Assembly (NCBI RefSeq): GCF_022647325.1
Contig: NZ_CP071405.1
Coordinates: 1,426,001-1,490,000 of the forward strand
Direction of reading: 5' to 3'
Length of the DNA: 64,000 bases
Origin: Pantoea deleyi
Lineage (GTDB): Bacteria; Pseudomonadota; Gammaproteobacteria; Enterobacterales; Enterobacteriaceae
The notes beneath the pieces were generated by a model, which was not told where the DNA came from, made no database searches, and saw only the letters and a list, made by a program, of their open reading frames with translations. Shown one piece after another: positions 27,577-56,556 of the stretch (positions within the stretch are counted from its first letter, which is position 1; each line of letters begins with the position of its first letter). The translations under genes were made by a program, and so were the position numbers.

Positions 27577-27975
27577 ATATTTGATTTAATTTTTCTTAAT
27601 CGCGATTTATCAATATTCTGATTGCGTCGACTTGGCGCATCAGCAACCATCTTCTACGCCATGAAAGCGCTCATTAGTTGAACTAACACCCGCATTACAA
27701 TCGCATTTTATTCGTAATAGCTATATCTGAGTGATAGAATTTGCGATTGTTGAATGATAAACCCACTTAAACAATTTCATCAATAAAGTGATATCAATCA
27801 ACGAAATGCTGGTTATGTAACGGATTCCCGTCATCAGCATATTCATTCGGCCAAAGATAATCAGCATCGTGGGAGCTGTAACCCAGGGGCGGTAGCGTGC
27901 TCTGAAAACGCTTATGATTGTCTGCTTTTTATTCAGGCGCCTATGCCTCAGATAGCTTGTCAGGAATAACACGTT
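27577..27975. other. AT-rich leader of the rfb locus, no gene
   Basis: About 400 bp from the galE terminator to rfbB. It holds an ops/JUMPstart element at its downstream end. No promoter boxes convincing enough to list were found, and the small minus-strand frame here is not believed. The length and composition are typical of O-antigen operon leaders. Confidence 0.6.
27870..27900 (+). promoter_or_regulatory. Second JUMPstart with ops element (27888-27899)
   Basis: GGCGGTAGCGTG is again perfect, and the preceding GAGCTGTAACCCAGG follows the longer JUMPstart consensus closely. It lies 76 bp before rfbB and faces it. RfaH loading here would serve the rhamnose/ABC-exporter operon independently of the exopolysaccharide operon. 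Confidence 0.92.
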
Positions 27976-29055
27976 ATGAAAATACTTATCACTGGTGGTG
28001 CAGGTTTTATCGGTTCAGCGGTTGTGCGTCACGTTATCAACAATACCAACGATGAAGTGATAAACGTTGATAAACTCACCTATGCTGGCAATCTTGAGTC
28101 TCTGAAAGAGGTGAGCAGCAACCCACGTTACACCTTCAGGCAAATCGATATCTGCGACGGTCAGGCTATCTCTGCTGCACTCAACGAGTTCCAGCCAGAC
28201 GCCATCATGCATCTGGCAGCAGAAAGCCATGTAGACCGTTCCATCACCGGTCCGGCGGAATTCGTGCAGACCAACGTGGTAGGTACATACGCTTTACTGG
28301 AAGCCAGTCGCCAGTACTGGAGCGCACTGCCAGAAGCGCGTAAAGCTGCATTCCGTTTTCATCATATTTCCACGGACGAAGTCTACGGCGACCTGCCACA
28401 TCCGGACGAAATGGACGGCGAGTTGCCACTGTTTACCGAAGAGACGCCGTATGCCCCGAGCAGCCCATACTCGTCAACCAAAGCTGCCAGTGACCATCTG
28501 GTCCGCGCATGGGGCCGCACCTATAAACTGCCAGTTATCGTGACGAACTGCTCGAATAACTACGGTCCTTATCACTTCCCGGAAAAACTGATTCCTCTGA
28601 TTATCAGCAATGCCCTGGAAGGTAAGCCATTGCCTATCTATGGCAAAGGCGATCAGATTCGAGACTGGCTCTATGTCGAAGATCATGCGCGTGCGCTTTA
28701 TACCGTTGTTAAGCATGCTAAAACCGGCACCACTTACAACATCGGTGGACATAATGAAAAGAAAAACATCGATGTCGTAATGAAAGTATGTGAACTGCTG
28801 GACCAGCTGCGCCCTAAAGCGACCTCCTACCGCGACCAGATTACCTACGTTCAGGATCGCCCGGGCCACGACCGCCGTTACGCAATCGATGCCGCTAAGA
28901 TTGAAAAAGAGTTGGGCTGGAAACCGGAAGAGACCTTTGAAACTGGCCTGAAGAAAACCGTTGAATGGTACCTGAACAACTCACAGTGGGTTGAGCATGT
29001 GAAGAGTGGGGCTTACCAGAACTGGATCGAACAAAACTACGAGAAGCGTAGCTAA
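27976..29055 (+). CDS. rfbB: dTDP-glucose 4,6-dehydratase
   Basis: 359 residues. NAD-binding [11 protein letters not shown] is at the N terminus, the STDEVYGDL motif carries catalytic Asp/Glu, and [11 protein letters not shown] carries the catalytic tyrosine. It makes dTDP-4-keto-6-deoxyglucose, the second step to dTDP-L-rhamnose. First gene after the ops element, with AGGAA upstream. The stop overlaps the rfbD start (TAATG). Also called rmlB. Confidence 0.97.
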
Positions 29056-29942
29056 TGAATATTCTGCTTTTTGGTAAAAATGGACAGGTGGGCTGGGAAC
29101 TTCAGCGTGCACTGGCACCCTTAGGCAATCTGACTGTTGTTGATCGCCATTCCATTGAATACTGTGGTGATTTTGAAAATCCACAGGGTGTGGCTGAGAC
29201 GGTTCGCAGAATTAAGCCTGCAGTGATTGTAAATGCGACAGCTTATACCGCTGTCGATAAAGCCGAATCCGAAGAGGACAAAGCACGTCTGATCAATGCA
29301 ACGTCCATCAAAGCGCTGGCTGAGGCCGCTGAAGAAACCGGCGCATGGTTGATCCATTACTCAACTGATTACGTATTTGATGGTTCAGGCGCAGAGCCCT
29401 GGTCTGAAGAGGATCCGACGGCTCCTTTGAATATCTACGGCCAGACAAAGCTGGAAGGTGAGCAGGCCATCGTCCGCAGTATGACGAAATACCTCATTTT
29501 TCGGACCAGCTGGGTGTATGCCGCAAAAGGTAATAACTTTGCTAAAACCATGCTGAAACTGGCGAAAGACCGGGAGACGCTGTCAGTCATTGACGATCAG
29601 TTTGGTGCGCCCACGGGCGCTGAGTTGATCGCAGACAGTACGGCGCACGCCATCAGAGTGGCCATTAACAATAGTGGCGTTGCAGGCATTTATCATCTCA
29701 TTGCCGCTGGCGAAACGACCTGGCATGCTTACGCTTCTAAGGTTATTGCGTTCGCTAAACAGCAAGGCGTTGAACTTAATGTTCAGGCAATCAATCCTGT
29801 ACCGACCAGTGCATTTCCTACGCCAGCCAGACGGCCTGGTAACTCCCGGCTCAATACTGCTAAGTTTCAGCGCACCTTTGGTTTGACCTTGCCTGACTGG
29901 CAATTGGGTGTTGAACGCATGTTGATTGAGACTCTTATATAA
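29055..29942 (+). CDS. rfbD: dTDP-4-dehydrorhamnose reductase
   Basis: 295 residues. The N-terminal Rossmann motif is GKNGQVGWELQ, with STDYVFDG and YGQTKLEGE (catalytic Tyr-Lys). It performs the last, NADPH-dependent step to dTDP-L-rhamnose. One-base overlap with rfbB and a 43 bp gap to rfbA. Also called rmlD. Confidence 0.97.
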   Translation: MNILLFGKNGQVGWELQRALAPLGNLTVVDRHSIEYCGDFENPQGVAETVRRIKPAVIVNATAYTAVDKAESEEDKARLINATSIKALAEAAEETGAWLIHYSTDYVFDGSGAEPWSEEDPTAPLNIYGQTKLEGEQAIVRSMTKYLIFRTSWVYAAKGNNFAKTMLKLAKDRETLSVIDDQFGAPTGAELIADSTAHAIRVAINNSGVAGIYHLIAAGETTWHAYASKVIAFAKQQGVELNVQAINPVPTSAFPTPARRPGNSRLNTAKFQRTFGLTLPDWQLGVERMLIETLI

Positions 29943-29985
29943 TTAAACAGGCTGCGATAGTGACCTGACCACGTAAGGCTAAATT

Positions 29986-30867
29986 GTGAAAAAGAATAAA
30001 GGTATTATTCTGGCGGGTGGCTCCGGAACCCGCCTCTACCCTGTAACAATGGCAGTGAGCAAGCAGTTACTCCCGGTTTACGATAAACCCATGATCTACT
30101 ATCCGTTAAGCACTCTGATGCTGGCGGGCATTAACGATATTCTGATTATCAGTACGCCGCAGGATACGCCACGCTTCGAAAGTCTGTTAGGTGATGGCTC
30201 ACAGTGGGGTATCTCCATTCAGTATAAAGTGCAGCCGAGCCCGGATGGCCTGGCGCAGGCGTTCATCATTGGTGAAGAGTTTATTGGTGACGATTCAGTC
30301 GCACTTATTCTGGGCGATAATATTTTCTATGGGCACGATCTCTATAAGCAGCTGGAGACGGCATCCGTAAAAGATGATGGCGCAACGGTTTTCGCCTACC
30401 ATGTCACTGACCCCGAGCGCTATGGCGTGGTGGAGTTTGACAGCGAAGGCAAAGCGATCTCACTGGTTGAAAAACCTGAGCATCCACGCAGCAACTATGC
30501 AGTAACCGGACTCTATTTCTACGACAATCGCGTCGTTGAGATGGCAAAAAATCTCAAGCCATCACCGCGCGGTGAGCTGGAGATTACGGACATTAATCGG
30601 ATCTATATGGAGCAGGGCAAACTTTCTGTTTCTATTATGGGACGTGGTCATGCCTGGCTGGATACCGGTACGCATCAGAGCCTGATGGAAGCCAACAACT
30701 TTATTCAGACTATCGAATCACGCCAGGGTTTAAAAGTGGCCTGCCCGGAAGAAATTGCCTTCAGAATGGGTTTCATTAATAAAGAGCAATTACAGGAACT
30801 GGCCAAGCCTTATTTGAAAAATGAGTATGGCAAATACTTAATGGCGCTGGTGGAAGGGCGTTTATAA
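29986..30867 (+). CDS. rfbA: Glucose-1-phosphate thymidylyltransferase
   Basis: 293 residues with a GTG start at 29986, since the conserved [14 protein letters not shown] begins there. The nucleotidyltransferase signature [11 protein letters not shown] is intact, with ILGDNIFYG and VEKPEHP downstream. It makes dTDP-glucose from dTTP and glucose-1-phosphate, the first committed step. One-base overlap with rfbC. Also called rmlA. Confidence 0.97.
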
Positions 30868-31415
30868 TGAAGATTATTGATACTAAGATTGCTGATGTAA
30901 AAATTATTGAGCCTAAAGTGTTTGGCGACGAGCGCGGTTTTTTTCTGGAAACGTGGAATCAGCAGAAATTTGAAGAACAAGTTTCACCAAGGACTTTTGT
31001 TCAGGATAACCACTCGAAATCTTCAAAAGGTATTTTACGTGGTTTGCACTATCAGACTATGAACACCCAAGGCAAGCTAGTACGTGTTGTTGCAGGGGAA
31101 GTCTACGATGTGGCAGTTGATATGAGGAGGTCGTCACCGACTTTTGGGCAGTGGGTAGGCGTGTATCTTTCTGCTGAAAATAAGCGACAGCTATGGGTAC
31201 CAGAAGGGTTTGCTCATGGTTTTTATGTGACATCTGAAAGTGCCGAGTTTGTCTATAAATGCACTGATTACTACAATCCACAACATGAGCATTCTTTGCT
31301 TTGGAATGATTCAGAACTGAATATCAATTGGCCGATTTCTGAAGGTGATAGTCCTGTTCTGTCCGCAAAAGACATGGACGGAACAACACTATCACATGCA
31401 GTAACATTTGATTGA
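30867..31415 (+). CDS. rfbC: dTDP-4-dehydrorhamnose 3,5-epimerase
   Basis: 182 residues, the cupin-like RmlC. Signature GILRGLHYQ carries the catalytic His, and PEGFAHGFYV follows. It epimerises dTDP-4-keto-6-deoxyglucose at C3 and C5. It is visibly more AT-rich in codon choice than rfbB and rfbA and ends the rhamnose set; a strong terminator lies 12 bp after the stop. Also called rmlC. Confidence 0.96.
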   Translation: MKIIDTKIADVKIIEPKVFGDERGFFLETWNQQKFEEQVSPRTFVQDNHSKSSKGILRGLHYQTMNTQGKLVRVVAGEVYDVAVDMRRSSPTFGQWVGVYLSAENKRQLWVPEGFAHGFYVTSESAEFVYKCTDYYNPQHEHSLLWNDSELNINWPISEGDSPVLSAKDMDGTTLSHAVTFD

Positions 31416-31464: not shown

Positions 31465-32397
31465 ATGATGATGAGCAATAATGGTAAAGTAAGTATTCTG
31501 ATGGGTACTTATAATGGAGAAAGATACTTAACCGAGCAACTTCAGTCAATTGCTTCACAAACATACACTAACTGGAATCTGATTATTTCCGATGACGGAT
31601 CGACAGATAGAACCTGTGAGATCATTGAAGAGTTTTCGTTAAAATATCCGGACAAAGTCGTAATTCAAAAAGGTCCAGGGAAGGGGTTTGCAGCCAATTT
31701 TCTCTGCATGCTTCAACGCAAAGACATAGATTCTGAATTTTACGCTTTCTGCGATCAGGATGATATCTGGCTGGAAGATAAACTTGAAGTCGCTGTTTTT
31801 AAGTTAAATTCAATATCTCAAAGTGAATATAGATTATATGGATCGCGTACCCAGCTGATTGACTCAAATGGAGAATTCATTGGCCATTCGCCATGCTTTA
31901 CAAAAGCTTTTAATTTTAATAATGCGCTTTTGCAGAGCTATGCTGGTGGAAATACAATGGTATTCAGTCGAGGGTTGAAGGAGCTATTTGAAAAGCTGCC
32001 TGCAGATTTAAAGATCGTTTCTCATGATTGGATTCTTTACGTTATATGTAGCGCCATGAATGGTAATGTCATTTATGATCGGGAACCAAAAATCCTCTAC
32101 AGGCAACATGAAAAAAACCTGGTTGGGAGCAATACAGGTCTATTATCAAAGTTCACCAGATTTAACAGGCTCTTTTCTGGAGAATTTAAAGCCTGGAGCG
32201 AAATGAATTGCGAGGCAATAGATAGCATCAAAGATAAAATGCCCTATGATAATCAAATCACATATCAAAGGTTTTGTTCACTGCGAGATGGCTTGTCAAA
32301 AAGAACTATTAGTTTCTTAAAAGGTAAGTTCTATCGGCAAAGCTTCGTTGAGACATGTGCTTTTTTTGTCATGAATGTATTTAAAAAATTGATTTAA
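31465..32397 (+). CDS. GT2 glycosyltransferase, probable rhamnosyltransferase
   Basis: 310 residues. GT2 features are KVSILMGTYNGERYL at the N terminus, LIISDDGSTDRT, and the metal-binding FCDQDDIWLEDK near residue 96. This combination is common in O-antigen rhamnosyltransferases. Three successive ATGs (31465, 31468, 31471) are possible starts and no clear SD decides. The gene is AT-rich and uses rarer codons than the rfb genes, a sign of separate origin. Rhamnose as donor is inferred from the adjacent dTDP-rhamnose genes. Confidence 0.82.
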   Translation: MMMSNNGKVSILMGTYNGERYLTEQLQSIASQTYTNWNLIISDDGSTDRTCEIIEEFSLKYPDKVVIQKGPGKGFAANFLCMLQRKDIDSEFYAFCDQDDIWLEDKLEVAVFKLNSISQSEYRLYGSRTQLIDSNGEFIGHSPCFTKAFNFNNALLQSYAGGNTMVFSRGLKELFEKLPADLKIVSHDWILYVICSAMNGNVIYDREPKILYRQHEKNLVGSNTGLLSKFTRFNRLFSGEFKAWSEMNCEAIDSIKDKMPYDNQITYQRFCSLRDGLSKRTISFLKGKFYRQSFVETCAFFVMNVFKKLI

Positions 32398-32414: not shown

Positions 32415-33710
32415 ATGAAACGAATTATTTATATGATTGTCAGGTTTTTTCTGAAAATTGCTATATACTGTTATTATGGTGTTTTATCGATTCGTGATGA
32501 CATCAAAACAAAAAAATATACAGATGTAAAGATCAAGACTGACTTTAACGGTGGCAAGGTTATGCTCCTTGCTCTTTATGAAAAATCCTCGTTAAGGACT
32601 GATACCCTTGAATTGTTGAAAGAAGCTAAACGAAACAATGTCTTTGTTATTGCGGTCAACACATTAAAGCTTGAGGAAGTCAATTTTCCAAATGATTTAA
32701 CTGATGTTTACATTGAACGCGATAACTATGGCCGGGATTTCGGTAGTTATAAAGCTGGGATGACATACTTCTTCGAAAATAACTTTCAGACGAAATGTGG
32801 AAGGCTTCTAATTATTAACGACAGTGTATTCTTTTCAAAGTTGGGGCTGTCTGAATTTGTCAAAAATCTGTTTGAGACTAAAGTTGAAGTGTTGGGTGCA
32901 ACAGAGAATAGTCAGCACTCACATCATTTAGGCTCTTTTTGCATTTCTGTTGGTGAAAAAATAATCAGGAATGGCAAGTTTAAAAATTTCTGGTACGAAT
33001 ATAAAGCATCAAATGTCAGACCATTAGTCATCAAGCGCGGTGAGTTTGGTTTAAGTAAACTTCTCAAATCCCTTGTCAGCTCTGAACAGGAATTTAAGTC
33101 ACTCTTTAATATTTCTTTTATGGAGCGTAAACTTAGAGAAGATCTTGAGTTTTATAAAAACTATTACTACTACCGCCGCGAAGGTGTCAGGGGATGGGCT
33201 AACCGTTCAATAACCGGTATGCTTGTTAATGACGAGGTATTGTCTTCATATTACAATCAATATTTAATACAAAACAGAAATTATTCGAAATTGCTCGTCC
33301 CCGGTGAAATTCATCCCTCTTCGAAGATTCTGGTTAATGATGCAGAGACATCGAAAGATGAAAATGTTGATTACCTTAATGTTGTGAATTTTTTCAGGAC
33401 TTATAGTAATGACGAAACTTTCCTGGATAGTCAATTCAAACAACGTGTAGTCGCCCTCTACCTTGATGAATTTACGATGGGTTCTCAAATCCATATCAAC
33501 TGTCTCGCACTGCATCATGTGGGCCTGCCGATTATAAAATTGGATTTGATGTTCCGTTGCGTGTGTAGCATGAACGATATTATTAAGCTTCGAGATCAAC
33601 TTGATGAATCTCAACAGGAGGAATTTATGACGTTGATGCTTGCTCGCCTGTGTGGTGATAGATTCCTTGTCGGTTTAAATCGTCTTGCATATCAGTTTGG
33701 GATTTTGTGA
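32415..33710 (+). CDS. RgpF-like (rhamnan synthesis F family) protein
   Basis: 431 residues. A short N-terminal hydrophobic segment (about residues 5-25) comes first. The hallmark of the rhamnan synthesis F family is at about residues 103-113: DNYGRDFGSYKAG, followed by LLIINDSVFF and a long alpha/beta region. Members take part in assembly of rhamnose-containing polysaccharides, probably as glycosyltransferases on the cytoplasmic side of the membrane. AT-rich; its TGA overlaps the wzm start. It is the second protein in the locus likely to build the rhamnose polymer. Confidence 0.8.
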   Translation: MKRIIYMIVRFFLKIAIYCYYGVLSIRDDIKTKKYTDVKIKTDFNGGKVMLLALYEKSSLRTDTLELLKEAKRNNVFVIAVNTLKLEEVNFPNDLTDVYIERDNYGRDFGSYKAGMTYFFENNFQTKCGRLLIINDSVFFSKLGLSEFVKNLFETKVEVLGATENSQHSHHLGSFCISVGEKIIRNGKFKNFWYEYKASNVRPLVIKRGEFGLSKLLKSLVSSEQEFKSLFNISFMERKLREDLEFYKNYYYYRREGVRGWANRSITGMLVNDEVLSSYYNQYLIQNRNYSKLLVPGEIHPSSKILVNDAETSKDENVDYLNVVNFFRTYSNDETFLDSQFKQRVVALYLDEFTMGSQIHINCLALHHVGLPIIKLDLMFRCVCSMNDIIKLRDQLDESQQEEFMTLMLARLCGDRFLVGLNRLAYQFGIL

Positions 33711-34510
33711 TGTCAAATAAACAAAAGTCGGTTGGGTGGGATGATTTCACCTCCGCATTAAAGAATTTTCATGTCGTGAAAGTCATGGGTGGGCAGGACA
33801 TCCGCATGCGGTATAAACGCTCTAAAATGGGGCCGTTTTGGATTACCATCAGTATGGCGGTGATGATCACCACCATGGGGTTAGTATTCGGCAACTTGTT
33901 TAAAACCAATGTTAAGGAATTTCTACCCTATCTGACTTTAGGCTTGATTACATGGACATTTATTCAAAGCTGCATATCTGAAGGCTGTGATGCTCTCATT
34001 TCGTCTGAGGGTATTATCAAGCAACTGCCTGTGCCTTTGCATGTTCACGTAATGCGAGTAGTGTGGAAAAATTTATTAATATTCCTCCATAATATTGTTA
34101 TTTTTCCTCTGGTGCTGCTTGCAGTGCAAAAAAGCGTGAGCTGGACTGTATTGTTAGCAATACCTGGGTTCTTTCTGCTTGTATTAAATCTCACTTGGAT
34201 ACTAATGGTACTTTCTATGATTTGTGCGCGCTTTCGTGACATGACACAAATCGTAATGAGTATTATGCAGGTCATATTTTATCTGACTCCAGTAATCTGG
34301 ATGCCTAAGTTGCTGTCGCATAGTTCGGCTGCTATCTTGTTAAATTTCAATCCACTTTACCATCTTATCGATTTAGTGCGCAGCCCATTATTAGGCCAAG
34401 TGCCGATGACGAGCAGTTATATCACAGCAGTTGTAATGGCAATATTGGGTTTGGCTTTTTCGATTGCAATGACCAGTAAATTTAAATATCGCGTTCCTTA
34501 TTGGGTGTAA
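33710..34510 (+). CDS. wzm: ABC-2 polysaccharide exporter permease Wzm
   Basis: 266 residues from the ATG at 33710, which overlaps the preceding stop. The N-terminal cytoplasmic segment has DIRMRYKRSKMGPFW, typical of polysaccharide exporters, followed by about six membrane helices ending in FKYRVPYWV. It forms the membrane channel that flips a completed undecaprenyl-linked glycan with the ATPase encoded next. The presence of Wzm/Wzt and absence of a second wzx/wzy pair says this glycan is made by the ABC-transporter pathway. Confidence 0.93.
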   Translation: MSNKQKSVGWDDFTSALKNFHVVKVMGGQDIRMRYKRSKMGPFWITISMAVMITTMGLVFGNLFKTNVKEFLPYLTLGLITWTFIQSCISEGCDALISSEGIIKQLPVPLHVHVMRVVWKNLLIFLHNIVIFPLVLLAVQKSVSWTVLLAIPGFFLLVLNLTWILMVLSMICARFRDMTQIVMSIMQVIFYLTPVIWMPKLLSHSSAAILLNFNPLYHLIDLVRSPLLGQVPMTSSYITAVVMAILGLAFSIAMTSKFKYRVPYWV

Positions 34511-34514
34511 TTCG

Positions 34515-35288
34515 ATGGCAACTATCAAATTTGAAAATGTAGGTATCGATTTTCCTATATTCGATGCAAGGGCAAGATCTATCAAAAAGAACTTTATTAA
34601 TTTTGCTACAGGCGGAAAGGTTGGCCAGCATGATGGTAAAGTAGTTGTTTCTGCTCTGAATAATCTTAATTTTGAGATTAAAGATGGGGAGCGGGTTGGT
34701 TTAATTGGTCATAATGGTGCGGGTAAAACCACGTTGTTGCGTATGTTTAGCAAGGTATATCATCCAACAAGTGGTCAGGCTACTATTAAAGGTGATATTG
34801 GTTCATTAATTTCAATTTCATTAGGCATCAATCAGGAGTTTACTGGTAGAGAAAATATATACATTCGTGGTGCACTCTTGGGCCTGAAAAAGAAAGAAAT
34901 TGATGCACGAATTGATGAAATCATTGATTTTACTGATTTAGGCGATTTTATAGACATGCCGGTCAGAACATACTCATCAGGTATGCAAATGCGACTCGGC
35001 TTCAGTGTTAGTACAATTTTTACTCCAGAAATTTTGCTGATGGATGAATGGTTATCTGTTGGAGATGAAGGTTTTAAAGAGAAAGCAGAGACGCGTTTAA
35101 CAAACATTATAAACTCAACTAAAATTTTGATTTTAGCCAGTCACAGTAACGAGTTATTGAGAAAGACCTGCACCAGAATTTTATGGCTGGAACATGGTAC
35201 TGTTAAAATGGATGGTACACCTGATGAAGTGCTGCCACTCTATTTTAAATCAAATATAAAAAGAGGCGATTTATTAGCCAATGCCTAG
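34515..35288 (+). CDS. wzt: ABC polysaccharide exporter ATPase Wzt (no carbohydrate-binding domain)
   Basis: 257 residues. Walker A GHNGAGKTT is at 65-73, ABC signature YSSGMQMRLGFS at about 153-164, Walker B ILLMDEWLSVGDE from about 173, and the switch His is in LILASHSNELL. It stops soon after the ATPase fold, so it lacks the C-terminal carbohydrate-binding domain that reads a terminal cap in Wzt proteins of capped O-antigens. It powers Wzm. Four bases separate the two genes. AT-rich. Confidence 0.94.
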   Translation: MATIKFENVGIDFPIFDARARSIKKNFINFATGGKVGQHDGKVVVSALNNLNFEIKDGERVGLIGHNGAGKTTLLRMFSKVYHPTSGQATIKGDIGSLISISLGINQEFTGRENIYIRGALLGLKKKEIDARIDEIIDFTDLGDFIDMPVRTYSSGMQMRLGFSVSTIFTPEILLMDEWLSVGDEGFKEKAETRLTNIINSTKILILASHSNELLRKTCTRILWLEHGTVKMDGTPDEVLPLYFKSNIKRGDLLANA

Positions 35289-35415
35289 TCTTGCGCATTT
35301 TGGTATTTGATCATCGCACCATTCACTACCTAAAATGCAGATAGATGGGTTAACATATTTGCCACTTCAGTCACAAATCTTAGTTTGTGATGGTAACTTC
35401 AGACAGGAGTAGATG

Positions 35416-36825
<1,410 letters not shown>

Positions 36826-36837
36826 ATTTCTACTTTA

Positions 36838-36866
36838 TAAGGCTTCGTTATGAAGCCTTATTTTTT
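36838..36866 (+). terminator. Terminator after gnd
   Basis: TAAGGCTTC / GAAGCCTTA, 9 bp stem with GTTAT loop, followed by TTTTTT. It isolates gnd from the next gene, which must have its own promoter in the 165 bp AT-rich stretch that follows. Confidence 0.9.
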
Positions 36867-37030: not shown

Positions 37031-40000
37031 ATGAACTCACCAAAAAAAAGTATTTCTCCATCGTTTGATGTATTTAATGATCTGCAAATAACCTCTGAAA
37101 ATACAAATCATTATCCTAATTACTCAATGAATACAATATCATTCATGAGTCCCATTGAACTCACTCTCTCTGCATGGCTGGAGCATATTCCTTTTGCATT
37201 TTGGTTGATTAATGCTCATAAACCTCGTGTGTTAGTTGAACTTGGTACACACTATGGCTCTTCATATTTTGCTTTCTGTCAGGCTATAAATCAGTTGAAT
37301 CTATCCACAAAAACCTATGCTGTCGATATGTGGAAAGGGGACGAGCACGCAGGTTTTTATGGAGAGAATGTTTATAATTCAGTGCTGTCGCACAATAATC
37401 ATTTGTATTCTCGATTTTCTACACTTATGCGCACATCTTTTGATGAAGCTTCAGAGCACTTTACTGACGGCGAAATAGATCTGCTGCATATTGATGGCTA
37501 TCACACTTACGAAGCAGTGAAAAACGATTTCAACGTATGGCTTCCTAAATTATCCAACCGCGGTGTTGTAATAATCCACGATAGCAATGTACGCAAAGCT
37601 GATTTTGGTGTTTACAAGTTTGTGGCTGAACTGCGAGAGAAATATCCCTGTTTCGAATTCTCACATGGTCATGGTTTGACGATTGTCGGAGTAGGTACAG
37701 ATCAAGATGCCGCGATGCTTCAACTTTTTGCTGCCGATAGTGATGCAGTCAAAGTCAGGCATATCCAGACAATTTTCTCAAGGCTAGGCAAAGCTTGTGC
37801 CGATGAATACAAAGTAAAAATAAATAGCATCGATCATGAACGTCAAAAAGCAGAGCTTAAAGATGCTTCAGCTAAGATAAAAGATGGATTGGAAAAATTA
37901 AACGATCTAAAAGATCAAAATACTGATCTAGAAGCCGTTCTCTCAGAACTTCGTCAGAGTCTTGACGTCAGACTGGATGAAATGGACACTTTGAAACAGG
38001 AATTGGTAAAACTTCAGGAAAATAATTTATTAGTTAATGGTCAACTTACCATTAGAGATGAAGAGATACATGCAATTTTGAATTCCACATCATGGCATGT
38101 AACTAAGCCGCTCAGATTTTTCAAACGTGTCGTAAATTTTCTAATCAGAAAAGCGCGTTTCAAATCTTCAGAGAACCCGGAAAAAGTCAGTGGACATCCG
38201 TTGCCAGTAGATGAACAGGTTATCCATTTTGACAGCCAATGGTATCTCACGACCTATTCTGATATTGCCGATTCTGGGGTTGATCCTTACGAACATTATC
38301 TGGAACACGGTCGTCATGAAGGACGCTATCCATCTAAAGATGCGCTGAAAAATGCCGTAGCTCCCGATTTAGATGAAGAATGGTATCTTACAACCTATTC
38401 TGATGTCAGAAGCGCAGGTCTTAGCGCACTACATCATTATATAAACTATGGCCGTGTAGAGGGACGATTCTCTTCATTGGCTAAGCTATTCGCTCAGGAC
38501 TTTGATGAGAAATGGTATGTTGAAGAGTATCCTGATGTAGCAGCTGCTGGTATTGAGCCATTAGAACATTTCCTTTTATACGGCTATGCCGAAGGTCGCA
38601 AGCCTTGCGCGATGCCACGTATGCTGGAAGCGCCCTATTTTCGATACGGACCTTCAGAATATGGTGCTAAAGATGCGCCACTGATGATAGACGCTGATGT
38701 AAGTTTAAATAATAATTTTAAGCAAAAGGTTGCTGTTCATTTACATCTTTATTATATCGATCTGGCTGAAGAGTTTGTCAGTTATCTTAATAACATACCT
38801 GCTAAATTTGATCTGTTTATTTCAATACCTGAAGGAAAATATCAAATTGAAGATTGCGAAAAGATTTTCGCTTCTTCATTGCGAAACCTGAATGCGATAA
38901 CTGTTAAAGAAACCAAAAATGTTGGCAGAGACATTTATCCATTTATTGTTGTGTTTGGGCGCGATCTGCTTGCTTACGATTTAGTTCTTCATATACATTC
39001 AAAAAAATCACCGCAATCTAAAACAAGAGGATGGCGTAGATTCCTCCTTCACTATACTCTTGGTAGCAAAGCTATCGTTACGCAGATTCTGAACGCGTTT
39101 GATGAAGAAAAACGCCTGGGTGCTTATTTCCCAGCTTATTTCCATGCAACTACCCGCCAACCGTTATGGGGTGGGAACAGCGCTATAGTTGAAAGGGAAC
39201 TGGAAAAACTGGGTTTTGAATATAACATGACTCATTGCCCGGATTATCCAGCCGGCTCATTCTTTTGGGCAAGACCTGAGGTTTACAGGCCCGTATTAGA
39301 CGGAAAATATCAACTTAGTGATTTTGACGAAGAAAAAGGTCAGTTTGATGGCACCCTGGCTCATGGATTTGAGCGATTATTCGGTGTCTTGCCTCTGGTG
39401 CAAGAATATAAAACGAAGATAAGTTTTGTTGATCGAGATTATCGACTTTTAAACTACTTTGATAAAGAAAGGTTTGCTACTTCTGAAAAGAAAACCTTAG
39501 CTCATTTCGAACAAGATCGTACGGCTGATATTGCGGCTTACCAAAAAGAAAAAAGTGAGAGAGTACATAAAAAGGCTAGCATTGCTCTCGTTACCGCTAT
39601 TATCGGTAATTTCGATGCGCTTTTTATACCAAAACATCTTGAAGGTGATGTCGACTATTACTGTTTCTCTGATACATTATCAGATGGCTATGGTGTCTTT
39701 GATATTTTTAAGCCTCCATATATTGATGCCGATCCGCGTCGAACAGCACGTTATATAAAAACTAATCTCATGAAATATTTTCATGACTACGATTATGTTG
39801 TCTGGATCGATGCAAATGTTGAAATAAATGTCAAAGTCTCTGAGCTTGTTCTGAGAGTGTCAGATTCATCCCATTCTCTGGGAGCCATTCAGCATCCAGT
39901 CAGAGATAATTTATTCCAAGAGGCCGAGGAAATTCTCGCATGGGATCTTGATGACGTAAGTGTTGTAAAAGAGCAAATAGCCCGATATGAGTACATACAT

Positions 40001-41188
40001 AATCTTCGCTCTGAACCATTAATTGAGAGTAATGTCTTGGTTATGGATGCGCGTGATGAAAGAATCCATAATTTCATGCGTATCTGGTGGAATGAGATAA
40101 ATAATTATAGCCGGCGGGATCAGCTCAGCATCGGCTACGCTTTGAAAGAAGCGGGTGTAACGTGGCAACCTCTTTTAGAGGAACAGCAGTCAACACGAGA
40201 TTCGCATGAATTTGCATTATTTCGTCATGGAATCAATGACTGGGGGCCTAAGCCACACATCTATTCTTCATGGTACAAACCTTGCACAAAACAGACGCAT
40301 GATATCAATCCCGTGATATCTGATGACTCAGCTGCAATGCAGCTTAATCTTGATATTGTAATTTGTATTCATAACGCTTTAGAGGACGTTCGTGCCTGCC
40401 TTGATTCGCTTGATGGCGTTTTATCAACAGCAAATATTATTTTGGTGGACGACGCTTCTGATGATGAAACCAAAATATTTTTGGAAAAGTATGCAGAGCA
40501 TAACCCTGTAACGTTATTGCGTCAGAATGAGCGTCTTGGCTATACTAAAACGTCAAACAATGGGATTCGCGCTGGATACAGTGAAAATGTTCTTCTGCTT
40601 AACAGTGACACTATTGTTCCGCCAGATTCATTGAGTAAGCTTTGTACAGCACTAAATAATCAACCCAACTTAGGCGTAGTTGGACCATTATCTAATGCAG
40701 CAAGTACTCAATCAGTTCCATCAATAAAAGGGACTGCAGGACAAACTGCAATTAATGCGTTACCTGAGAAATTATCTCCCGCCGAGTTAGATTCCTACTT
40801 TGAAAAAAATTGGGATCATGAGCTTGTCAGAGTTCCGTTGGTGCACGGTTTCTGTTTTATGGTTAAGCGAGCTATATTCGAGCAGGTGGGTTTATTCGAT
40901 GAACAAAGCTTCCCGCACGGTTATGGGGAAGAAAACGACTTTTGTTTCCGTGTTGCGGATGCAGGCTTCGATTTAGCCGTACTGACAAATACTTATATTT
41001 ATCATGCCAAATCAAAAAGCTATGCCAGTGATGAACGTGTGCGTTTGATGGATGAAGGTATGAAAGCTCTCGTTCGTAAATATTCTGTTCACAGGATTCA
41101 GCGCTCTGTTTCAACTATGCAAAATCACCCTAAGCTAGAAACAGCCCGAACGCTGGCACAAAAACTCTACGATCTGCACAGTGATTAA
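37031..41188 (+). CDS. Giant fusion: methyltransferase, coiled coil, three repeats, RgpF-like, DUF616/TOD1-like and GT2 regions
   Basis: 1385 residues from the ATG at 37031 (AAGGA upstream; an in-frame TTG at 36998 is rejected). Regions seen: class I methyltransferase at about 60-235 (VELGTHYGS near 69, LLHIDGYHTYEAVKNDF at 151-167); likely coiled coil at about 260-350; linker SWHVTKPLRFF; three modules of about 35 residues at 400, 447 and 491, patterned WY...Y.DV..AG...L.H....G..EGR; RgpF-like region at about 560-815 with NVGRDIYPF near 631; DUF616/TOD1-like glycosyltransferase at about 846-1070 (ALVTAIIGNFDALF, VVWIDANVEI); GT2 from about 1105 (LDIVICIHNA, LLLNSDTIVPP, GYGEENDFCFRV). No signal peptide or membrane helix was noticed. 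AT-rich. It probably builds and perhaps methylates the rhamnose-containing glycan; the function of the whole is inference. Confidence 0.85.
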   Translation: MNSPKKSISPSFDVFNDLQITSENTNHYPNYSMNTISFMSPIELTLSAWLEHIPFAFWLINAHKPRVLVELGTHYGSSYFAFCQAINQLNLSTKTYAVDMWKGDEHAGFYGENVYNSVLSHNNHLYSRFSTLMRTSFDEASEHFTDGEIDLLHIDGYHTYEAVKNDFNVWLPKLSNRGVVIIHDSNVRKADFGVYKFVAELREKYPCFEFSHGHGLTIVGVGTDQDAAMLQLFAADSDAVKVRHIQTIFSRLGKACADEYKVKINSIDHERQKAELKDASAKIKDGLEKLNDLKDQNTDLEAVLSELRQSLDVRLDEMDTLKQELVKLQENNLLVNGQLTIRDEEIHAILNSTSWHVTKPLRFFKRVVNFLIRKARFKSSENPEKVSGHPLPVDEQVIHFDSQWYLTTYSDIADSGVDPYEHYLEHGRHEGRYPSKDALKNAVAPDLDEEWYLTTYSDVRSAGLSALHHYINYGRVEGRFSSLAKLFAQDFDEKWYVEEYPDVAAAGIEPLEHFLLYGYAEGRKPCAMPRMLEAPYFRYGPSEYGAKDAPLMIDADVSLNNNFKQKVAVHLHLYYIDLAEEFVSYLNNIPAKFDLFISIPEGKYQIEDCEKIFASSLRNLNAITVKETKNVGRDIYPFIVVFGRDLLAYDLVLHIHSKKSPQSKTRGWRRFLLHYTLGSKAIVTQILNAFDEEKRLGAYFPAYFHATTRQPLWGGNSAIVERELEKLGFEYNMTHCPDYPAGSFFWARPEVYRPVLDGKYQLSDFDEEKGQFDGTLAHGFERLFGVLPLVQEYKTKISFVDRDYRLLNYFDKERFATSEKKTLAHFEQDRTADIAAYQKEKSERVHKKASIALVTAIIGNFDALFIPKHLEGDVDYYCFSDTLSDGYGVFDIFKPPYIDADPRRTARYIKTNLMKYFHDYDYVVWIDANVEINVKVSELVLRVSDSSHSLGAIQHPVRDNLFQEAEEILAWDLDDVSVVKEQIARYEYIHNLRSEPLIESNVLVMDARDERIHNFMRIWWNEINNYSRRDQLSIGYALKEAGVTWQPLLEEQQSTRDSHEFALFRHGINDWGPKPHIYSSWYKPCTKQTHDINPVISDDSAAMQLNLDIVICIHNALEDVRACLDSLDGVLSTANIILVDDASDDETKIFLEKYAEHNPVTLLRQNERLGYTKTSNNGIRAGYSENVLLLNSDTIVPPDSLSKLCTALNNQPNLGVVGPLSNAASTQSVPSIKGTAGQTAINALPEKLSPAELDSYFEKNWDHELVRVPLVHGFCFMVKRAIFEQVGLFDEQSFPHGYGEENDFCFRVADAGFDLAVLTNTYIYHAKSKSYASDERVRLMDEGMKALVRKYSVHRIQRSVSTMQNHPKLETARTLAQKLYDLHSD

Positions 41189-41255: not shown

Positions 41256-42554
41256 TTATCCTACCAGCAAATCCCCGCTCCGAATCTCCCGCTCACCCGC
41301 CAGCCTCACCACCAGCATGCCCGCCGTTGCAAAGCGTACCCAGTGTCTCGCATAGAGAATACCGCCATACTCGGCGACCAGCGGCGTAATGTGATCGGTC
41401 ACGGGATCGACAATCTCAGCAACCACTTCACCAGGCCGGATCAGCGCGCCCAGCGGCTTACGATGCAGGATCAGCCCCGACACCGGCGAGTGAATATATT
41501 CACAGCCCGCTAACGGCGTCGGCGGATTTTTCAGGGCAGGGGAGGAGGCCGACGTGCCTTCGCTGTGACGCTCCTTAATCACGCCCGTCTCGCCCGGCGC
41601 TTCCGCTGCCTCAGGCACGGTCAGACCGATGGGGCCATCATTGATCGCCACCACATCATCGCCCGCCGCATTCGCCGGCACCAGCTCATCCCCGCCAATC
41701 ACCGGCGCAGCTACCTCCACGGAAATGGCCGGTTCGCTATAGGCGATATAGCCGCCTTCCTGCAGTGCCGAAATAATTGCATCGGCATCTTTCTCCGCCT
41801 GCTCAGGCGAAACATCCCGCACGCCACGCAGCTCCAGCGTCACCGGCAGTAAACCGCGCGGCATCGGATAGGCCGCGCCAAAACGTTCCGCCAGCGTCAG
41901 CCAGGGCTCACAGCAGGCTTCATCGAACGGCTCACCGCCGGAGATCTGCGCCAGCAGCTGCACCTCGCTGCCCAGCCAGCGCGCCAGCGGCTCAATCTCC
42001 GGCCAGGCATGCGGCGTGGTGTAGAGATGTGGCACGGCTTCCCAGTCGCAGTGCAGATCAATCATCAGATCCGCCTGGCTGGCCATCCGCATCAGCGTAT
42101 AGCGCTGCGCATCCAGTTCGGTTTTTGGCACGGTGTCGCGATAGTGGCGATCGATCGCCTCGCGGATCAGGCTTCGGTTCTGTGACTCGCTCTGTGTCAG
42201 GCTGTCAGCCAGAGTGGTCGCCAGGGTCGCGCCCAGAGAGGGAAAGCGGCGGTTAAAGTCCTGACCAGAGAGCGTATGGTATCGGCCGAGATGGGTGCCG
42301 TGCCAGTGCTGTCCCAGCGCCAGAGGATTGGCAACCGGTACGAGGGTAAAGCCGGCTTTAAGCTGTCCGGCGGACTCCAGCGCCTGCAGACGCTGCTTTA
42401 AAAACCAGGCCACCGCCATCCCGGGCAGTTCATCGCCATGCAGCGCAGCCTGAATATAAACCTGACGTTCGTGATCCCCGGCAAAGTGGAAACTGATGAT
42501 TTCACGCTGGGTGCCTAAAGAGGCGCTTAACAGTGGATGATGTTGTTGATGCAT
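41256..42554 (-). CDS. Zinc-dependent deacylase, succinylglutamate desuccinylase/aspartoacylase family
   Basis: 432 residues. Zinc-ligand motif HGDE (His39, Glu42) and a third ligand His168 in LMIDLHCDWE follow the M14-like desuccinylase/aspartoacylase pattern. A flexible acidic, Ala/Pro-rich insert lies at about 290-345. The C-terminal domain (HSPVSGLILHRKPLGALIRPGE) looks like a small barrel as in biotinyl-like or AstE-like tails. Members hydrolyse an amide bond of an N-acylated amino acid or similar. The substrate is unknown; the binding-protein gene 105 bp upstream hints at an amino-acid derivative. Confidence 0.82.
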   Translation of the reverse strand: MHQQHHPLLSASLGTQREIISFHFAGDHERQVYIQAALHGDELPGMAVAWFLKQRLQALESAGQLKAGFTLVPVANPLALGQHWHGTHLGRYHTLSGQDFNRRFPSLGATLATTLADSLTQSESQNRSLIREAIDRHYRDTVPKTELDAQRYTLMRMASQADLMIDLHCDWEAVPHLYTTPHAWPEIEPLARWLGSEVQLLAQISGGEPFDEACCEPWLTLAERFGAAYPMPRGLLPVTLELRGVRDVSPEQAEKDADAIISALQEGGYIAYSEPAISVEVAAPVIGGDELVPANAAGDDVVAINDGPIGLTVPEAAEAPGETGVIKERHSEGTSASSPALKNPPTPLAGCEYIHSPVSGLILHRKPLGALIRPGEVVAEIVDPVTDHITPLVAEYGGILYARHWVRFATAGMLVVRLAGEREIRSGDLLVG

Positions 42555-52988: not shown

Positions 52989-55187
52989 ATGTTACCAAAT
53001 TTTTCGAAGTCGTTTGAAAAAATTCTATATGTAATCCTTTTTCTCTTAGGTGCGTTATACATTTTCAACTCCTGGAGCCCATCATCATACGGCTTCTTTT
53101 TAAAGAAAATTGACCCTCAAAATTCAGGCGTTTTATGGGGGGAACCAAGAGCTATACGCTCCGATGAATGGGCAGTAGTTACACCGCTAACTCAAGCCAC
53201 CATAAATAATGGGTTTAAACGCTATAATAAAACATCTTTTTACGGAGAAGACTTAAGAATAAATTATGGGCTTCCTATATTTGACTGGGGATTACTGTTC
53301 AAGCCTACTATGTGGGGATATTTGTTTTTGTCCCCTGCTAAAGCCTATTCATTGCAGTGGTACCTTACATTTTGCATTTTTATTATTGGGTATTTTAAAT
53401 TATTCAAAGAGATAGGTTTAAATAAAAAAATATCGATTTTATTAAGTTTCTCTCTTTTTTTTACTGGGGGTACTCAGTTTTGGTGGGATGAAAAGGGACC
53501 TGTTTATGCGTTTTTTCCATGGGTAGTTTATTTCTTAATATCTAAAAATAACATCTATCTTAGAATGATGTTATTTTATTGGGTGGGGGCTTCGTGGTTA
53601 ATTACAAACTTTTATCCACCACTAGTTATATCACTTGCATTCATTGGTGCAATGCTATTTGTTTCGGACTTAAAAAGTTGGAGGAATGTTAAATCTGTTA
53701 TTTTATTGGTTTTTTCTTCCTTAGCTATAATCATAACTGCTCTCTTTTATCTTAAAGACTATTTAATAAAAACCTCTAATACGGTATATCCCGGTCATCG
53801 CTCTTTTAGCGGAGGCAGTGTTGGATGGGGAGAGTGGTTATCACAATTTTTCCCTTTTTCAACTTTTAATACACATTTTGAGACAATATATAATAGCAAC
53901 ATATGCGAAGTTGGAGTGACTGGATTCTCTTTCATATTGCTGTTACTTATTCACCTTGACTACAATTCAGTAAAAACAAATTTCTTCAAAAACACTCACT
54001 ACAATAAAACATTGATTCTTGCAGTGGGCGTTATTCTAAGCAATCTATGGCTCATTGCACCAATACCTAGCTGGGCTGGTAAAATTTTTCTCTGGAATAA
54101 TGTTAGTCCTAATCGAATGGTATATGCAGCCGGTATTTTGACGGCGATTACATCAATGCTGTTTTTTCAAAATCTTAAATTTAAAATTAGCCCATTAAGA
54201 TTTATTGCATATATAACACTTGTTATTATCGTGTGGTATTTTATGAAATACCGTCCATTGACTCAGGATATGAAAGGGTTTGGTGGTTTTGCTCATAATT
54301 ACGCCGATTTTTATTTAATTGTAGCTATCATTATATCCTATTTCTTAATAAATTTTTTCAAATGCAAACCAATTGAAATATTTTTACTTACATCATTGTC
54401 AGCATCTTTTTTTGCATTTTTTAACTTCAATCCAATACAGTCAACGGATGCCATTTTTTCAGCGCATTCAAAAGCTAAGAAAATATTGGATTCTTCAGTC
54501 GATAGAAAAACAGGTGTATTGGCAATCGAAGGGTATCATGGATCTACATTAAATGGCTTAGGTTATAGATCTGTTAGTCATGTAACAGCAGTACCAGATC
54601 TAAATATGTGGAGAGGCAAGTTCCCAGAAATGCCGCATGATCAATTTGAAAAGATCTTTAATCGCTATTCTCACATTAGATTGGCTAATATTAGTGAGCC
54701 CTATTCACCGCAACCAGATGTTGTTTTAGTACCTATTTCTTTATTTAAAAAAGTAGAGTTTTATCCTGACGACTCAAATGCTGACTTGAAAGTCTTAAGA
54801 TTAAATAATAATGAAAAATTAGAAGGGAAAATTAACTCACGTATTTCAGGTAAAGTTAATTCATTCTCTGTATTGATTGGCACATACAATGGTCTTTCAG
54901 ATGGAGTTTTGAATTTAAAGGTATGTGTTAAAAATGTTTGTGAAACAGGCAGTATCTTTGTTGAGGATAGCCTCGATAATCAATATGCAGAGGTTCAGTT
55001 GACCACTCCGATATTAGTTAATAAAGGAGATACAATTGAATATAGCTATTCATTGCTAAATGCAACCAGACCTGTTGCTATATATTCCAATCATGGCAGT
55101 GATGAGGTTAGTATTTCAGTGAATGATATGGGTCAGCTGAAAAATTTAGGTGCGAAAATTAAAGTTAATTATGCAGGTGATGAATAA
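52989..55187 (+). CDS. Large multipass membrane protein, probable acceptor glycosyltransferase (GtrC position)
   Basis: 732 residues. About twelve hydrophobic helices fill residues 12-500, then a hydrophilic, probably periplasmic C-terminal domain of about 230 residues. An early conserved-looking loop PRAIRSDEWAVVTPL has an acidic pair (DE) in the first periplasmic loop, as in GT-C fold enzymes. It starts the operon with GtrB and GtrA, so it is likely the serotype-specific transferase that moves a sugar from a lipid carrier to a surface glycan. The name is not assigned because GtrC-type proteins share little sequence. Strongly AT-rich. Confidence 0.75.
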   Translation: MLPNFSKSFEKILYVILFLLGALYIFNSWSPSSYGFFLKKIDPQNSGVLWGEPRAIRSDEWAVVTPLTQATINNGFKRYNKTSFYGEDLRINYGLPIFDWGLLFKPTMWGYLFLSPAKAYSLQWYLTFCIFIIGYFKLFKEIGLNKKISILLSFSLFFTGGTQFWWDEKGPVYAFFPWVVYFLISKNNIYLRMMLFYWVGASWLITNFYPPLVISLAFIGAMLFVSDLKSWRNVKSVILLVFSSLAIIITALFYLKDYLIKTSNTVYPGHRSFSGGSVGWGEWLSQFFPFSTFNTHFETIYNSNICEVGVTGFSFILLLLIHLDYNSVKTNFFKNTHYNKTLILAVGVILSNLWLIAPIPSWAGKIFLWNNVSPNRMVYAAGILTAITSMLFFQNLKFKISPLRFIAYITLVIIVWYFMKYRPLTQDMKGFGGFAHNYADFYLIVAIIISYFLINFFKCKPIEIFLLTSLSASFFAFFNFNPIQSTDAIFSAHSKAKKILDSSVDRKTGVLAIEGYHGSTLNGLGYRSVSHVTAVPDLNMWRGKFPEMPHDQFEKIFNRYSHIRLANISEPYSPQPDVVLVPISLFKKVEFYPDDSNADLKVLRLNNNEKLEGKINSRISGKVNSFSVLIGTYNGLSDGVLNLKVCVKNVCETGSIFVEDSLDNQYAEVQLTTPILVNKGDTIEYSYSLLNATRPVAIYSNHGSDEVSISVNDMGQLKNLGAKIKVNYAGDE

Positions 55188-56159
55188 ATGATTAATTATA
55201 ATATGGTTAAACGGACTTATCGCGGTAACACAATTGCTGTTATTCTTCCTTGCTACAACGAAGCGCTTGCTGTTGAAAAGGTGGTAAAGCATTTTGAAGA
55301 GGCCTTGCCAGAAGCAGTGGTTCATGTTTTTGATAATAATTCTACCGATAATACGATTACACTGGCTGAACAAGCTGGCGCAATTGTTCACTCTGTAAAA
55401 AACAAAGGCAAAGGTAATGTTGTAAGGCGTATGTTTGCTGATGTTGAGGCCGATATTTATGTTATGGCAGATGGTGACGATACCTACCACGCACCTTCAG
55501 CTAGAAAATTAATCGATAAGTTGCTGGACGATAAGCTAGACATGGTCGTTGGCAAGCGAGAAGAAGTCGGAGAGAAAACGGCTGCCACATATCGTCAGGG
55601 ACATAGGTGGGGAAATCGAATGCTTACTGGGGCAGTAATGAGCATTTTCGGTGGAAAATTTACTGATATGTTATCGGGCTACAGAGTGTTTTCTCGTCGA
55701 TACGCTAAATCTTTTCCAGCACTGGCAAAAGGGTTTGAAACAGAAACCGAGTTGACGGTTCATGCGCTTGAACTGCGCATGCCATACGGTGAAGTTTCTA
55801 CACCTTATGGTTCACGGCCAGAGGGCTCAACCAGCAAGCTATCAACCTATAAAGATGGAATTAAGATCCTTCGCACAATCATAAATTTATATGTAAGTGA
55901 AAGACCATTTATTTTCTTTAGCTTAGTTGCACTATTTTTAGCTGCTCTCTCGCTAACTTTTTTTAGCGGCATTCTTGTGGATTATATTGACACTGGATTA
56001 GTACCTCGTCTCCCAACTGCAATTCTTTCTGTCGGATTGATGTTATCAGCAATAATATCTTTCTTTAGTGGTTTGGTATTAAGTACAGTAACATTAGGCA
56101 GGAATGAGACAAAGCGACTTGTATATCTTTCAATACCACAGACTACTCCTAAAGAATAA
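55188..56159 (+). CDS. gtrB: GtrB-like polyprenyl-phosphate glycosyltransferase
   Basis: 323 residues, DPM1/GT2 type. N-terminal TIAVILPCYNEALAVEKV, metal-binding VMADGDDTYH near residue 95, RQGHRWGNRML, and MLSGYRVFSRR; two C-terminal membrane helices end the protein. It loads a sugar from a nucleotide donor onto undecaprenyl phosphate on the cytoplasmic side. Its ATG follows directly on the previous stop. Confidence 0.88.
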   Translation: MINYNMVKRTYRGNTIAVILPCYNEALAVEKVVKHFEEALPEAVVHVFDNNSTDNTITLAEQAGAIVHSVKNKGKGNVVRRMFADVEADIYVMADGDDTYHAPSARKLIDKLLDDKLDMVVGKREEVGEKTAATYRQGHRWGNRMLTGAVMSIFGGKFTDMLSGYRVFSRRYAKSFPALAKGFETETELTVHALELRMPYGEVSTPYGSRPEGSTSKLSTYKDGIKILRTIINLYVSERPFIFFSLVALFLAALSLTFFSGILVDYIDTGLVPRLPTAILSVGLMLSAIISFFSGLVLSTVTLGRNETKRLVYLSIPQTTPKE

Positions 56160-56160
56160 T

Positions 56161-56556
56161 ATGAAAGCGATCAGAGATTTGTTCTTTTTTGGTGTTGCTG
56201 GAGTGTGCGGTTTTTTGATCGATTCAGGGGCTTTGTATTTTCTTAAGCCCTATGTTGGGATATATTTTGGTCGGCTAATTTCTTTTTTATTAGCTGTGAT
56301 TGTTACATGGCTGTTTAATCGAAATATCACCTTTAAAGATAAAAGTATTGATAAAAGTCTGATTTCTGAATTTCTGCATTATCTATCATTGATGGTCGTA
56401 GGAGGCGCCATTAATCTTGGTTCTTTTTACCTACTGGTTAGTTATGTGGATCAGATCAGAGAATGGCCTGTGATAGCAGTTGCTTTAGGTAGCATAGCTG
56501 GGATGATGGCGAATTATATTTCGAGTCGATATTTTCTTTACAAAAAACGATGTTGA
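56161..56556 (+). CDS. gtrA: GtrA-like flippase
   Basis: 131 residues with four membrane helices (FFFGVAGVCGFLIDSGALYF, LISFLLAVIVTWLFNRN, LSLMVVGGAINLGSFYLL, ALGSIAGMMANYISSRY). FNRNITF after helix 2 and SRYFLYK at the end are family hallmarks. It is thought to flip the undecaprenyl-phosphate-linked sugar made by GtrB. It starts one base after the GtrB stop. A hairpin-poor 78 bp separates it from the convergent puuB. Confidence 0.9.
   Translation: MKAIRDLFFFGVAGVCGFLIDSGALYFLKPYVGIYFGRLISFLLAVIVTWLFNRNITFKDKSIDKSLISEFLHYLSLMVVGGAINLGSFYLLVSYVDQIREWPVIAVALGSIAGMMANYISSRYFLYKKRC

Follow-up and report, generated by a model that had tools for sequence, protein, structure and literature searches.

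In the WbdD protein of Escherichia coli O9a and the WbbB protein of Klebsiella O12, a coiled coil that serves as a ruler carries the terminator at its far end (PMC11231755), and coiled-coil terminators are typically paired with a Wzt, the ATPase of an ATP-binding cassette (ABC) exporter, that bears a cap-reading domain (PMC11231755, PMC11127046). The ORF6 protein of Klebsiella pneumoniae O7 combines a terminator methyltransferase-kinase, a coiled coil and two glycosyltransferase family 2 (GT2) domains in one chain (PMC11231755). In Klebsiella O1, the O2a chain receives its second polymer and its pyruvate cap from the unlinked wbbY-wbbZ pair, in a system that lacks a terminal-moiety or carbohydrate-binding module mechanism (PMC10629545). 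In E. coli O101, both O-methylation and a second repeat type require an intact coiled-coil methyltransferase, and the authors interpret the O-methyl as one terminal group (PMC13168486). Here, we describe P0001, a 1385-residue protein encoded at positions 37031..41188 of a 64,000-nucleotide stretch of the genome of the plant-associated bacterium Pantoea deleyi (contig NZ_CP071405.1, positions 1,426,001 to 1,490,000; hereafter the window). With about even confidence, we read it as an exchangeable O-antigen add-on that would extend or decorate a pre-made chain in the cytoplasm and end it with O-methylation. Its interest lies less in its domain order than in a terminator-type head found together with an exporter that lacks the cap-reading domain, and in the slot that the gene occupies.

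The gene is a single unbroken frame on the forward strand (ATG at 37031, stop codon at 41186-41188, AAGGA about 8 nucleotides 5′ of the ATG), and its assignment rests on the open frame, Pfam and relatives. From the N to the C terminus, it encodes a Methyltransf_24 domain, a coiled-coil-like stretch, an amphipathic helix, three WY repeats, the C-terminal half of RgpF, a TOD1/DUF616 domain and a GT2 domain; all four Pfam families exceed their curated cut-offs. An earlier reading of the DNA (the sequence-only reading) had proposed the 1385-residue frame with a methyltransferase, a coil-like stretch, three repeats and RgpF-like, DUF616/TOD1-like and GT2 parts, and had set a domain search as its check beforehand. 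The frame, Pfam and hidden Markov model (HMM) results bear this description out.

The Methyltransf_24 domain, a class I S-adenosylmethionine-dependent methyltransferase (residues 69-184, 37235..37582, Pfam 3.4e-25), carries ELGTH, HIDGxH and HD motifs, which are conserved as invariant columns in an alignment of 35 sequences. The RgpF match (residues 562-791, 38714..39403, Pfam 4e-44) spans profile positions 267-501 of 503, so that P0001 holds the C-terminal half of this domain and not the whole of it; the N-terminal part is encoded by a separate open reading frame (ORF) at 32415-33710. All 31 of the 31 aligned rows share D634, H656, K658, D773, H778 and E781 of this region. The same is true of D927, N929, R1029, D1030 and Q1031 in the glycosyltransferase (GT)-like TOD1_MUCI70 region (residues 896-1039, 39716..40147, Pfam 3e-10; WIDANV and RRDQ motifs), a family formerly named DUF616. 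In the GT2 domain (Glycos_transf_2, residues 1109-1286, 40355..40888, Pfam 1.3e-18), the DXD-type motif NSD occupies residues 1191-1193 and EEND lies directly C-terminal of the Pfam stretch at 1300-1303; S1192 and D1193 are invariant in 31/31 rows, and N1191, E1300, E1301 and D1303 are kept in 30/31. Matches of the GT parts among Protein Data Bank (PDB) sequences are GT2 enzymes, with chondroitin synthase among the GT2 relatives, plus GT4 enzymes in rows with extra domains. PDB sequence searches with the WY region and the methyltransferase, RgpF and TOD1 parts brought up no significant match: a phmmer search with residues 1-260 to E 1 returned 2 chains, the better one, another methyltransferase, at 0.033.

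The layout of P0001 follows that of O7 ORF6 in placing an N-terminal methyltransferase, a coiled coil and C-terminal GT modules in one chain, and in both cases the O-antigen is of the ABC-exported type with rhamnose supply genes in the cluster (PMC11231755). The comparison is one of described layout, not of sequence. P0001 differs from ORF6 in the nature of its GT modules, which are RgpF, TOD1 and GT2 accompanied by WY repeats, in being encoded by an optional gene, and in standing beside a Wzt without a cap-reading domain. Pfam finds no kinase family in P0001 up to E 1; as the kinase of ORF6 is itself unannotated, a hidden domain of this kind is possible. Among the other differences, WbbB caps with 3-deoxy-D-manno-oct-2-ulosonic acid (Kdo), and WbdD lacks a GT.

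The domain order is also less singular than the sequence-only reading had supposed. A protein search in which 8000 candidates were scored returned 354 proteins, and among the best 120, which were listed, 13 (P0001 included) contain all four Pfam families; a methyltransferase-coiled coil-GT-GT fusion is, moreover, already characterised in Klebsiella O7 (PMC11231755). Eight further listed proteins (P0002-P0009) share the four domains at 61-81% identity, which argues that the architecture is not a product of chance. RgpF, TOD1 and GT2 occur together in 42 of the 120 listed homologues. Relatives free of the methyltransferase are found, for example, in Bradyrhizobium, and relatives in Thioalkalivibrio join the methyltransferase to TOD1-GT2 without RgpF. 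In layout, P0001 resembles the coiled-coil terminator-polymerases of Klebsiella O7 and O12, but its ABC exporter has no cap-reading Wzt_C domain, as in Klebsiella O1/O2a.

Residues 259-349 (37805..38077) are coiled-coil-like, a prediction that rests on weaker evidence than the Pfam domains. The stretch contains no proline, 38% of its residues are charged, its heptad periodicity has a p of 0.031 against shuffles, and matches to coiled-coil families, all inside residues 268-349, are weak (E 0.049 and worse). Compared with four other intact Pantoea copies, its identity is 33-61% versus 64-84% for the methyltransferase, RgpF, TOD1 and GT2 domains, a faster drift than that of its neighbours and one expected of a spacer. 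The coil is followed by an STSWHVTKPLR motif and an amphipathic helix (residues 352-378, 38084..38164; identified by hydrophobic moment and motif regex), whose residues 358-375 reach up to the 99.7th percentile of hydrophobic moment among windows within P0001. This helix is a candidate for membrane contact; in WbdD, an amphipathic helix after the coil is membrane-associated (PMC11231755). A regex for the motif matches 38 of the 120 listed homologues, 35 of which also carry ELGT in their first 200 residues.

The three WY repeats (residues 400-435, 447-482 and 491-526; 38228..38335, 38369..38476 and 38501..38608) were delineated with a purpose-built HMM. Each is 36 residues long (FDxxWYLxxYPDVAxxGxxPLxHYLxxGxxEGR, window 38228-38608), and no Pfam model matched them. 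A first regex undercounted the repeat, and the HMM counts are used instead: one to nine copies in 81 of the 120 listed homologues. The repeats occur in GTs, in a methyltransferase protein and in sulfotransferases (loci L050, L051 and L043 among them). Common to GTs and sulfotransferases, the repeat is a candidate docking module.

P0001 is encoded at the end of an O-antigen island, which it closes. The order of genes is galF, galE, rmlBDAC, a GT2 gene, RgpFN, wzm, wzt, gnd, the P0001 gene and an AstE-like gene. The sequence-only reading had set the gene, behind gnd, apart from the other glycan genes; such a separation is rejected, since gnd belongs to the same island and is directly preceded by two GT genes, wzm and wzt. 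On the forward strand, rmlB and what we take, from order and sequence, to be rmlD, rmlA and rmlC (27976..31415) provide the dTDP-rhamnose supply. They are followed by the GT2 enzyme of the core cassette (31465..32397), by RgpFN, a protein of 431 amino acids with the N-terminal part of RgpF only (32415..33710, profile 1-150), by the ABC-2 permease gene wzm (33707..34510), by wzt (34515..35288) and by gnd (35413..36825, TIGR00873). Further O-antigen genes directly behind gnd are also a feature of the E. coli O101/O162 loci (PMC13168486). There, the galF-gnd region encodes the methyltransferase as a protein of its own (PMC13168486), unlike in P0001.

An AstE_AspA-like gene on the reverse strand (41256..42554) bounds the slot. 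GC content is 40.0% for the P0001 gene, 36-41% for the core GT and transporter genes, 53.3% for gnd and 61.6% for AstE. Between gnd and the P0001 gene, a stem-loop resembling an intrinsic terminator (36837..36861, forward strand) combines an 11-bp stem with a T run, which suggests that the P0001 gene probably has its own leader. The hairpin is a consensus match only, in a scanned region with 8 terminator-like sites against 3.4 expected.

The exporter sets this island apart from those of the ruler-type terminators. P0001 has the terminal enzyme domain of such proteins in its Methyltransf_24 head, whose terminating role is putative; the window cassette lacks their cap-reading partner, as its Wzt (257 amino acids) consists of ABC_tran alone, with no Wzt_C. 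All 15 Wzts of the related Pantoea cassettes described below are 256-266 amino acids long as called ORFs. Four of these, the window's included, were scanned and none contains Wzt_C, and the other 11 were judged by length. As controls, Wzt_C was detected in the Pantoea genome G047 and in a 453-residue Wzt on plasmid CP124771. Among NCBIfam models, Wzm and Wzt score highest with those of Klebsiella-type galactan exporters, both short of the cut-off (289 bits against 380 for Wzm and 277 bits against 400 for Wzt). In this respect, the locus resembles wbbYZ, in which an optional gene (here in 7 of 15 cassette genomes) accompanies a core O-antigen exporter without a cap check. It is unlike O1 in that O1 employs separate proteins for polymerisation (WbbY) and capping (WbbZ) and uses pyruvate as its cap, and in that the accessible part of the report describes no coiled-coil ruler for them (PMC10629545). 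The pairing of a terminator-type head with such an exporter turns the purpose of a cap, be it export, length or surface chemistry, into a testable question.

The short Wzt, the shortness of the coil and a weak, below-cut-off score of the methyltransferase to rhamnosyl O-methyltransferase/CmcI would all suit an enzyme that decorates internal sugars or side branches, as in the usual O-methylation of repeat units, and terminates no chain, with the coil as an oligomerisation spacer. We regard this as improbable because the coil keeps its position between the methyltransferase and the GT modules despite its sequence divergence, because the coiled-coil methyltransferase of E. coli O101 reportedly adds lone methyl groups that are probably terminal (PMC13168486), and because a similar head does accompany a Wzt with Wzt_C. 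That head belongs to the 'rhamnan synthesis F family protein' of the K. michiganensis IncX5 plasmid CP124771, which is 41% identical to P0001 over 342 residues of Methyltransf_24 head and coil and 37% over 245 residues of the RgpF part, and in which a HAD domain replaces TOD1-GT2. The Wzt encoded in that cluster, unlike the window Wzt, has the cap-reading domain.

This plasmid (L059, typed conjugative) carries rfbBADC, an ABC permease, the ATPase with Wzt_C, the methyltransferase-coil-RgpF-HAD gene and two GT2 genes. A gene like that of CP124771 is present on Pantoea dispersa NZ_CP045218 (L058, also IncX5 and typed conjugative), where an O-antigen-type cluster is seen from the ABC ATPase on. 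Among plasmid records, 0 of 359 matching records cover 80% of P0001, and among phage records 0 of 25.

The distribution of the gene was examined in 61 Pantoea genomes, in which a Wzm was called close at E below 1e-120. A relative of RgpFN is present in 15 of them (the RgpFN of G029 and G009 being cut by contig ends) and a close Wzm in the identical 15. The P0001 protein itself is found in 7 of the 61 genomes at E = 0, and all 7 lie within these 15 (hypergeometric p 1.5e-5, uncorrected for relatedness). One further match over 1e-40, in G047, is confined to an RgpF stretch at 39% identity. That genome has a different O-antigen cassette before gnd (L041, 7434-12419), with a Wzt bearing Wzt_C and a 1661-residue methyltransferase-RgpF-HAD protein with a coil-like middle. 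The seven-of-seven co-occurrence with RgpFN and Wzm indicates that P0001 most likely relies on other proteins for its chain and its exporter. Accordingly, of the earlier proposal of a self-contained line adding several sugars plus a methyl group, the sugars and the methyl group stand as the likeliest reading and the self-containment does not.

The same co-occurrence bears on whether P0001 might act on another glycan, such as the neighbouring exopolysaccharide or the lipopolysaccharide core, its place in the O island being incidental. A leader of its own behind the terminator-like hairpin, and a location far from the O island in two genomes, would fit such a role. We nevertheless hold it to be very unlikely, given that all 7 carriers share a cassette that only 15 of the 61 genomes possess and that one of the alternative cargoes described next includes GtrII, a family that modifies O-antigens.

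What lies behind gnd varies widely among the 15 cassette genomes. An intact P0001 gene occupies this place in three (G000, G018 and G029) and an interrupted one in two (G007 and G017, the G007 copy also running off its contig). Each of these two (L038, L039) is broken behind the methyltransferase and ahead of the GT part, the breaks following residue 270 and residue 375 approximately, which leaves the catalytic parts in separate frames. In G039, G004 and G052, the slot holds a three-gene split set consisting of a methyltransferase, a WY-repeat GT4-type protein, which was run against Pfam in G039 only, and a third protein. The methyltransferase of this set is of the Methyltransf_24 type, with 28-30 bits against a cut-off of 26.3 (25.2 bits as a protein in G039), and ends in a coil-like tail with an SW-T-PLR-type motif. 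G005 and G008 have a WY-repeat sulfotransferase, barely above cut-off, and G040 a GT2 protein that is presumably GtrB-like together with GtrII.

The slot is empty in the remaining four genomes, namely G003, G009 and the sister genomes G060 and G022, which keep the O-antigen cassette without a P0001 gene in the slot. In the latter two, the gene is near tRNA-Lys, either on a different contig or at a distance of over 1 Mb. These copies (L037, L040), 94.7% identical to each other, lie directly behind three tRNA-Lys genes, a likely insertion hot spot; the genes ahead of the tRNA genes look like tol-pal.

On a tree of five flanking proteins, 5 changes are needed to account for presence in the slot if interrupted copies are scored as present, and G000 groups with genomes whose slot is empty or holds the sulfotransferase or the Gtr pair. 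The tree comprises the 15 genomes and G047; of its 13 inner branches, 7 are well supported and 4, including some within the relevant groups, are open, and the rows of G029 and G047 are less than half filled. The states of the slot, the tree and the distribution together show that the core cassette is inherited apart from the P0001 gene. The place behind gnd is thus a slot with alternative cargo, and the core cassette exists both with and without the P0001 gene. With five states in 15 genomes, this slot is a natural experiment in O-antigen diversification, which bears on phage receptors and serotyping.

These data also address a reading in which P0001, like O7 ORF6, is the main polymerase and terminator, GT2 and RgpFN make an adaptor or one linkage, and genomes devoid of P0001 use another polymerase to build a different O-antigen. 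The layout of methyltransferase, coiled coil and GT modules matches ORF6 (PMC11231755), the GT modules of P0001 outnumber the two small GT genes of the core, and the gene is kept in G060 and G022 although unlinked. Yet 8 of the 15 cassette genomes have no P0001 gene, and in those 8 no other match to the C-terminal half of RgpF was found anywhere in the genome. The sulfotransferase or Gtr pair present in 3 of them would be expected to require a polymer from other enzymes. We therefore consider a main polymerase possible, if rather less probable than an add-on.

Under the favoured add-on reading, the cytoplasmic product of the core enzymes would be an O-polysaccharide linked to undecaprenyl and probably containing rhamnose. 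The amphipathic helix behind the coil would hold P0001 at the membrane, while the RgpF, TOD1 and GT2 modules would add a second glycan to the core chain, either as a terminal extension or as side branches. At the far end of the coil, the N-terminal methyltransferase would O-methylate the new non-reducing end, upon which extension would stop, and, as the exporter would not read the cap, capped and uncapped chains would coexist. One polypeptide would then do the work of WbbY and WbbZ with the terminator-ruler-polymerase layout of O7 ORF6 and O12 WbbB. The domains, their conserved motifs, the slot, the co-occurrence and the short Wzt are observed directly; the donors and acceptors, the position of the methyl group, the ruler function of the coil and the membrane contact are inferred.

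Several points weigh against this scheme. The cap-reading Wzt that usually partners a terminator is missing. The coil is short (about 90 residues) with a modest heptad signal (p 0.031), and the methyltransferase has no significant relative by sequence among chains of solved structure, including WbdD, whose published structure places it within reach of the PDB comparison. The three GT modules could equally form the main polymerase. The co-occurrence takes no account of relatedness, and a single event probably explains both unlinked copies. A cassette free of any add-on is seen only in G009, where it is split over two contigs, and perhaps in G003, where the GT2 gene looks shortened (148 amino acids), which makes the proof that the core alone makes a polymer thin. 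For the strains considered here, we found no biochemistry, O-antigen structure or methyl-sugar datum. A search of the open-licence literature found no title on the P0001 protein or on the slot behind gnd in Pantoea. The O-polysaccharides of Pantoea agglomerans are rhamnose-containing and diverse, and no methylated sugar is described in the accessible part of the report, so that none of these structures can be tied to this locus (PMC7277085).

A bolder version of the add-on reading, which we offer tentatively and think unlikely in its entirety, would make P0001 a single-chain machine that both extends and caps. It would recognise the end of a finished chain and polymerise a different outer glycan; the coil would measure this block, the methyl group would close it, and the exporter would pass it without a cap check. 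The gene would sit in a recombination slot behind gnd in which WY-repeat GTs and sulfotransferases are swapped, and the WY repeats would be a shared adaptor docking on the core chain or complex.

Relatives of the methyltransferase alone reach into E. coli, where 66 of 5426 complete genomes carry one. P0119 (45% identical over 24% of the query) was considered as the O101 methyltransferase, and this identity is not supported: the 2 records examined of 67 matched lie in capsule-like ABC-transporter/export clusters. These two (L055, L056), one chromosomal and one on a plasmid, both lie near transposases. A 216-residue ATPase beside one E. coli methyltransferase relative has no Wzt_C.

The surroundings of the island contain further surface-glycan genes. 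An exact forward-strand match to the ops/JUMPstart core motif, GGCGGTAGCG, lies ahead of rmlB (27888..27897); it is one of two exact matches in the window, the other being 5′ of the exopolysaccharide operon, whose genes, upstream of the island, are ams-like. One protein of that cluster (window 19102-21318) shows a weak pectate-lyase-like match in addition to a phage tailspike head-binding domain. Beyond the AstE-like gene, the opposite strand carries what we take to be his genes. Behind these, at window 52989-56556, a 732-residue protein with a membrane-like N terminus, a GT2-like protein and a third ORF may, judging from the starts of their sequences, constitute a GtrAB-type glycosylation set.

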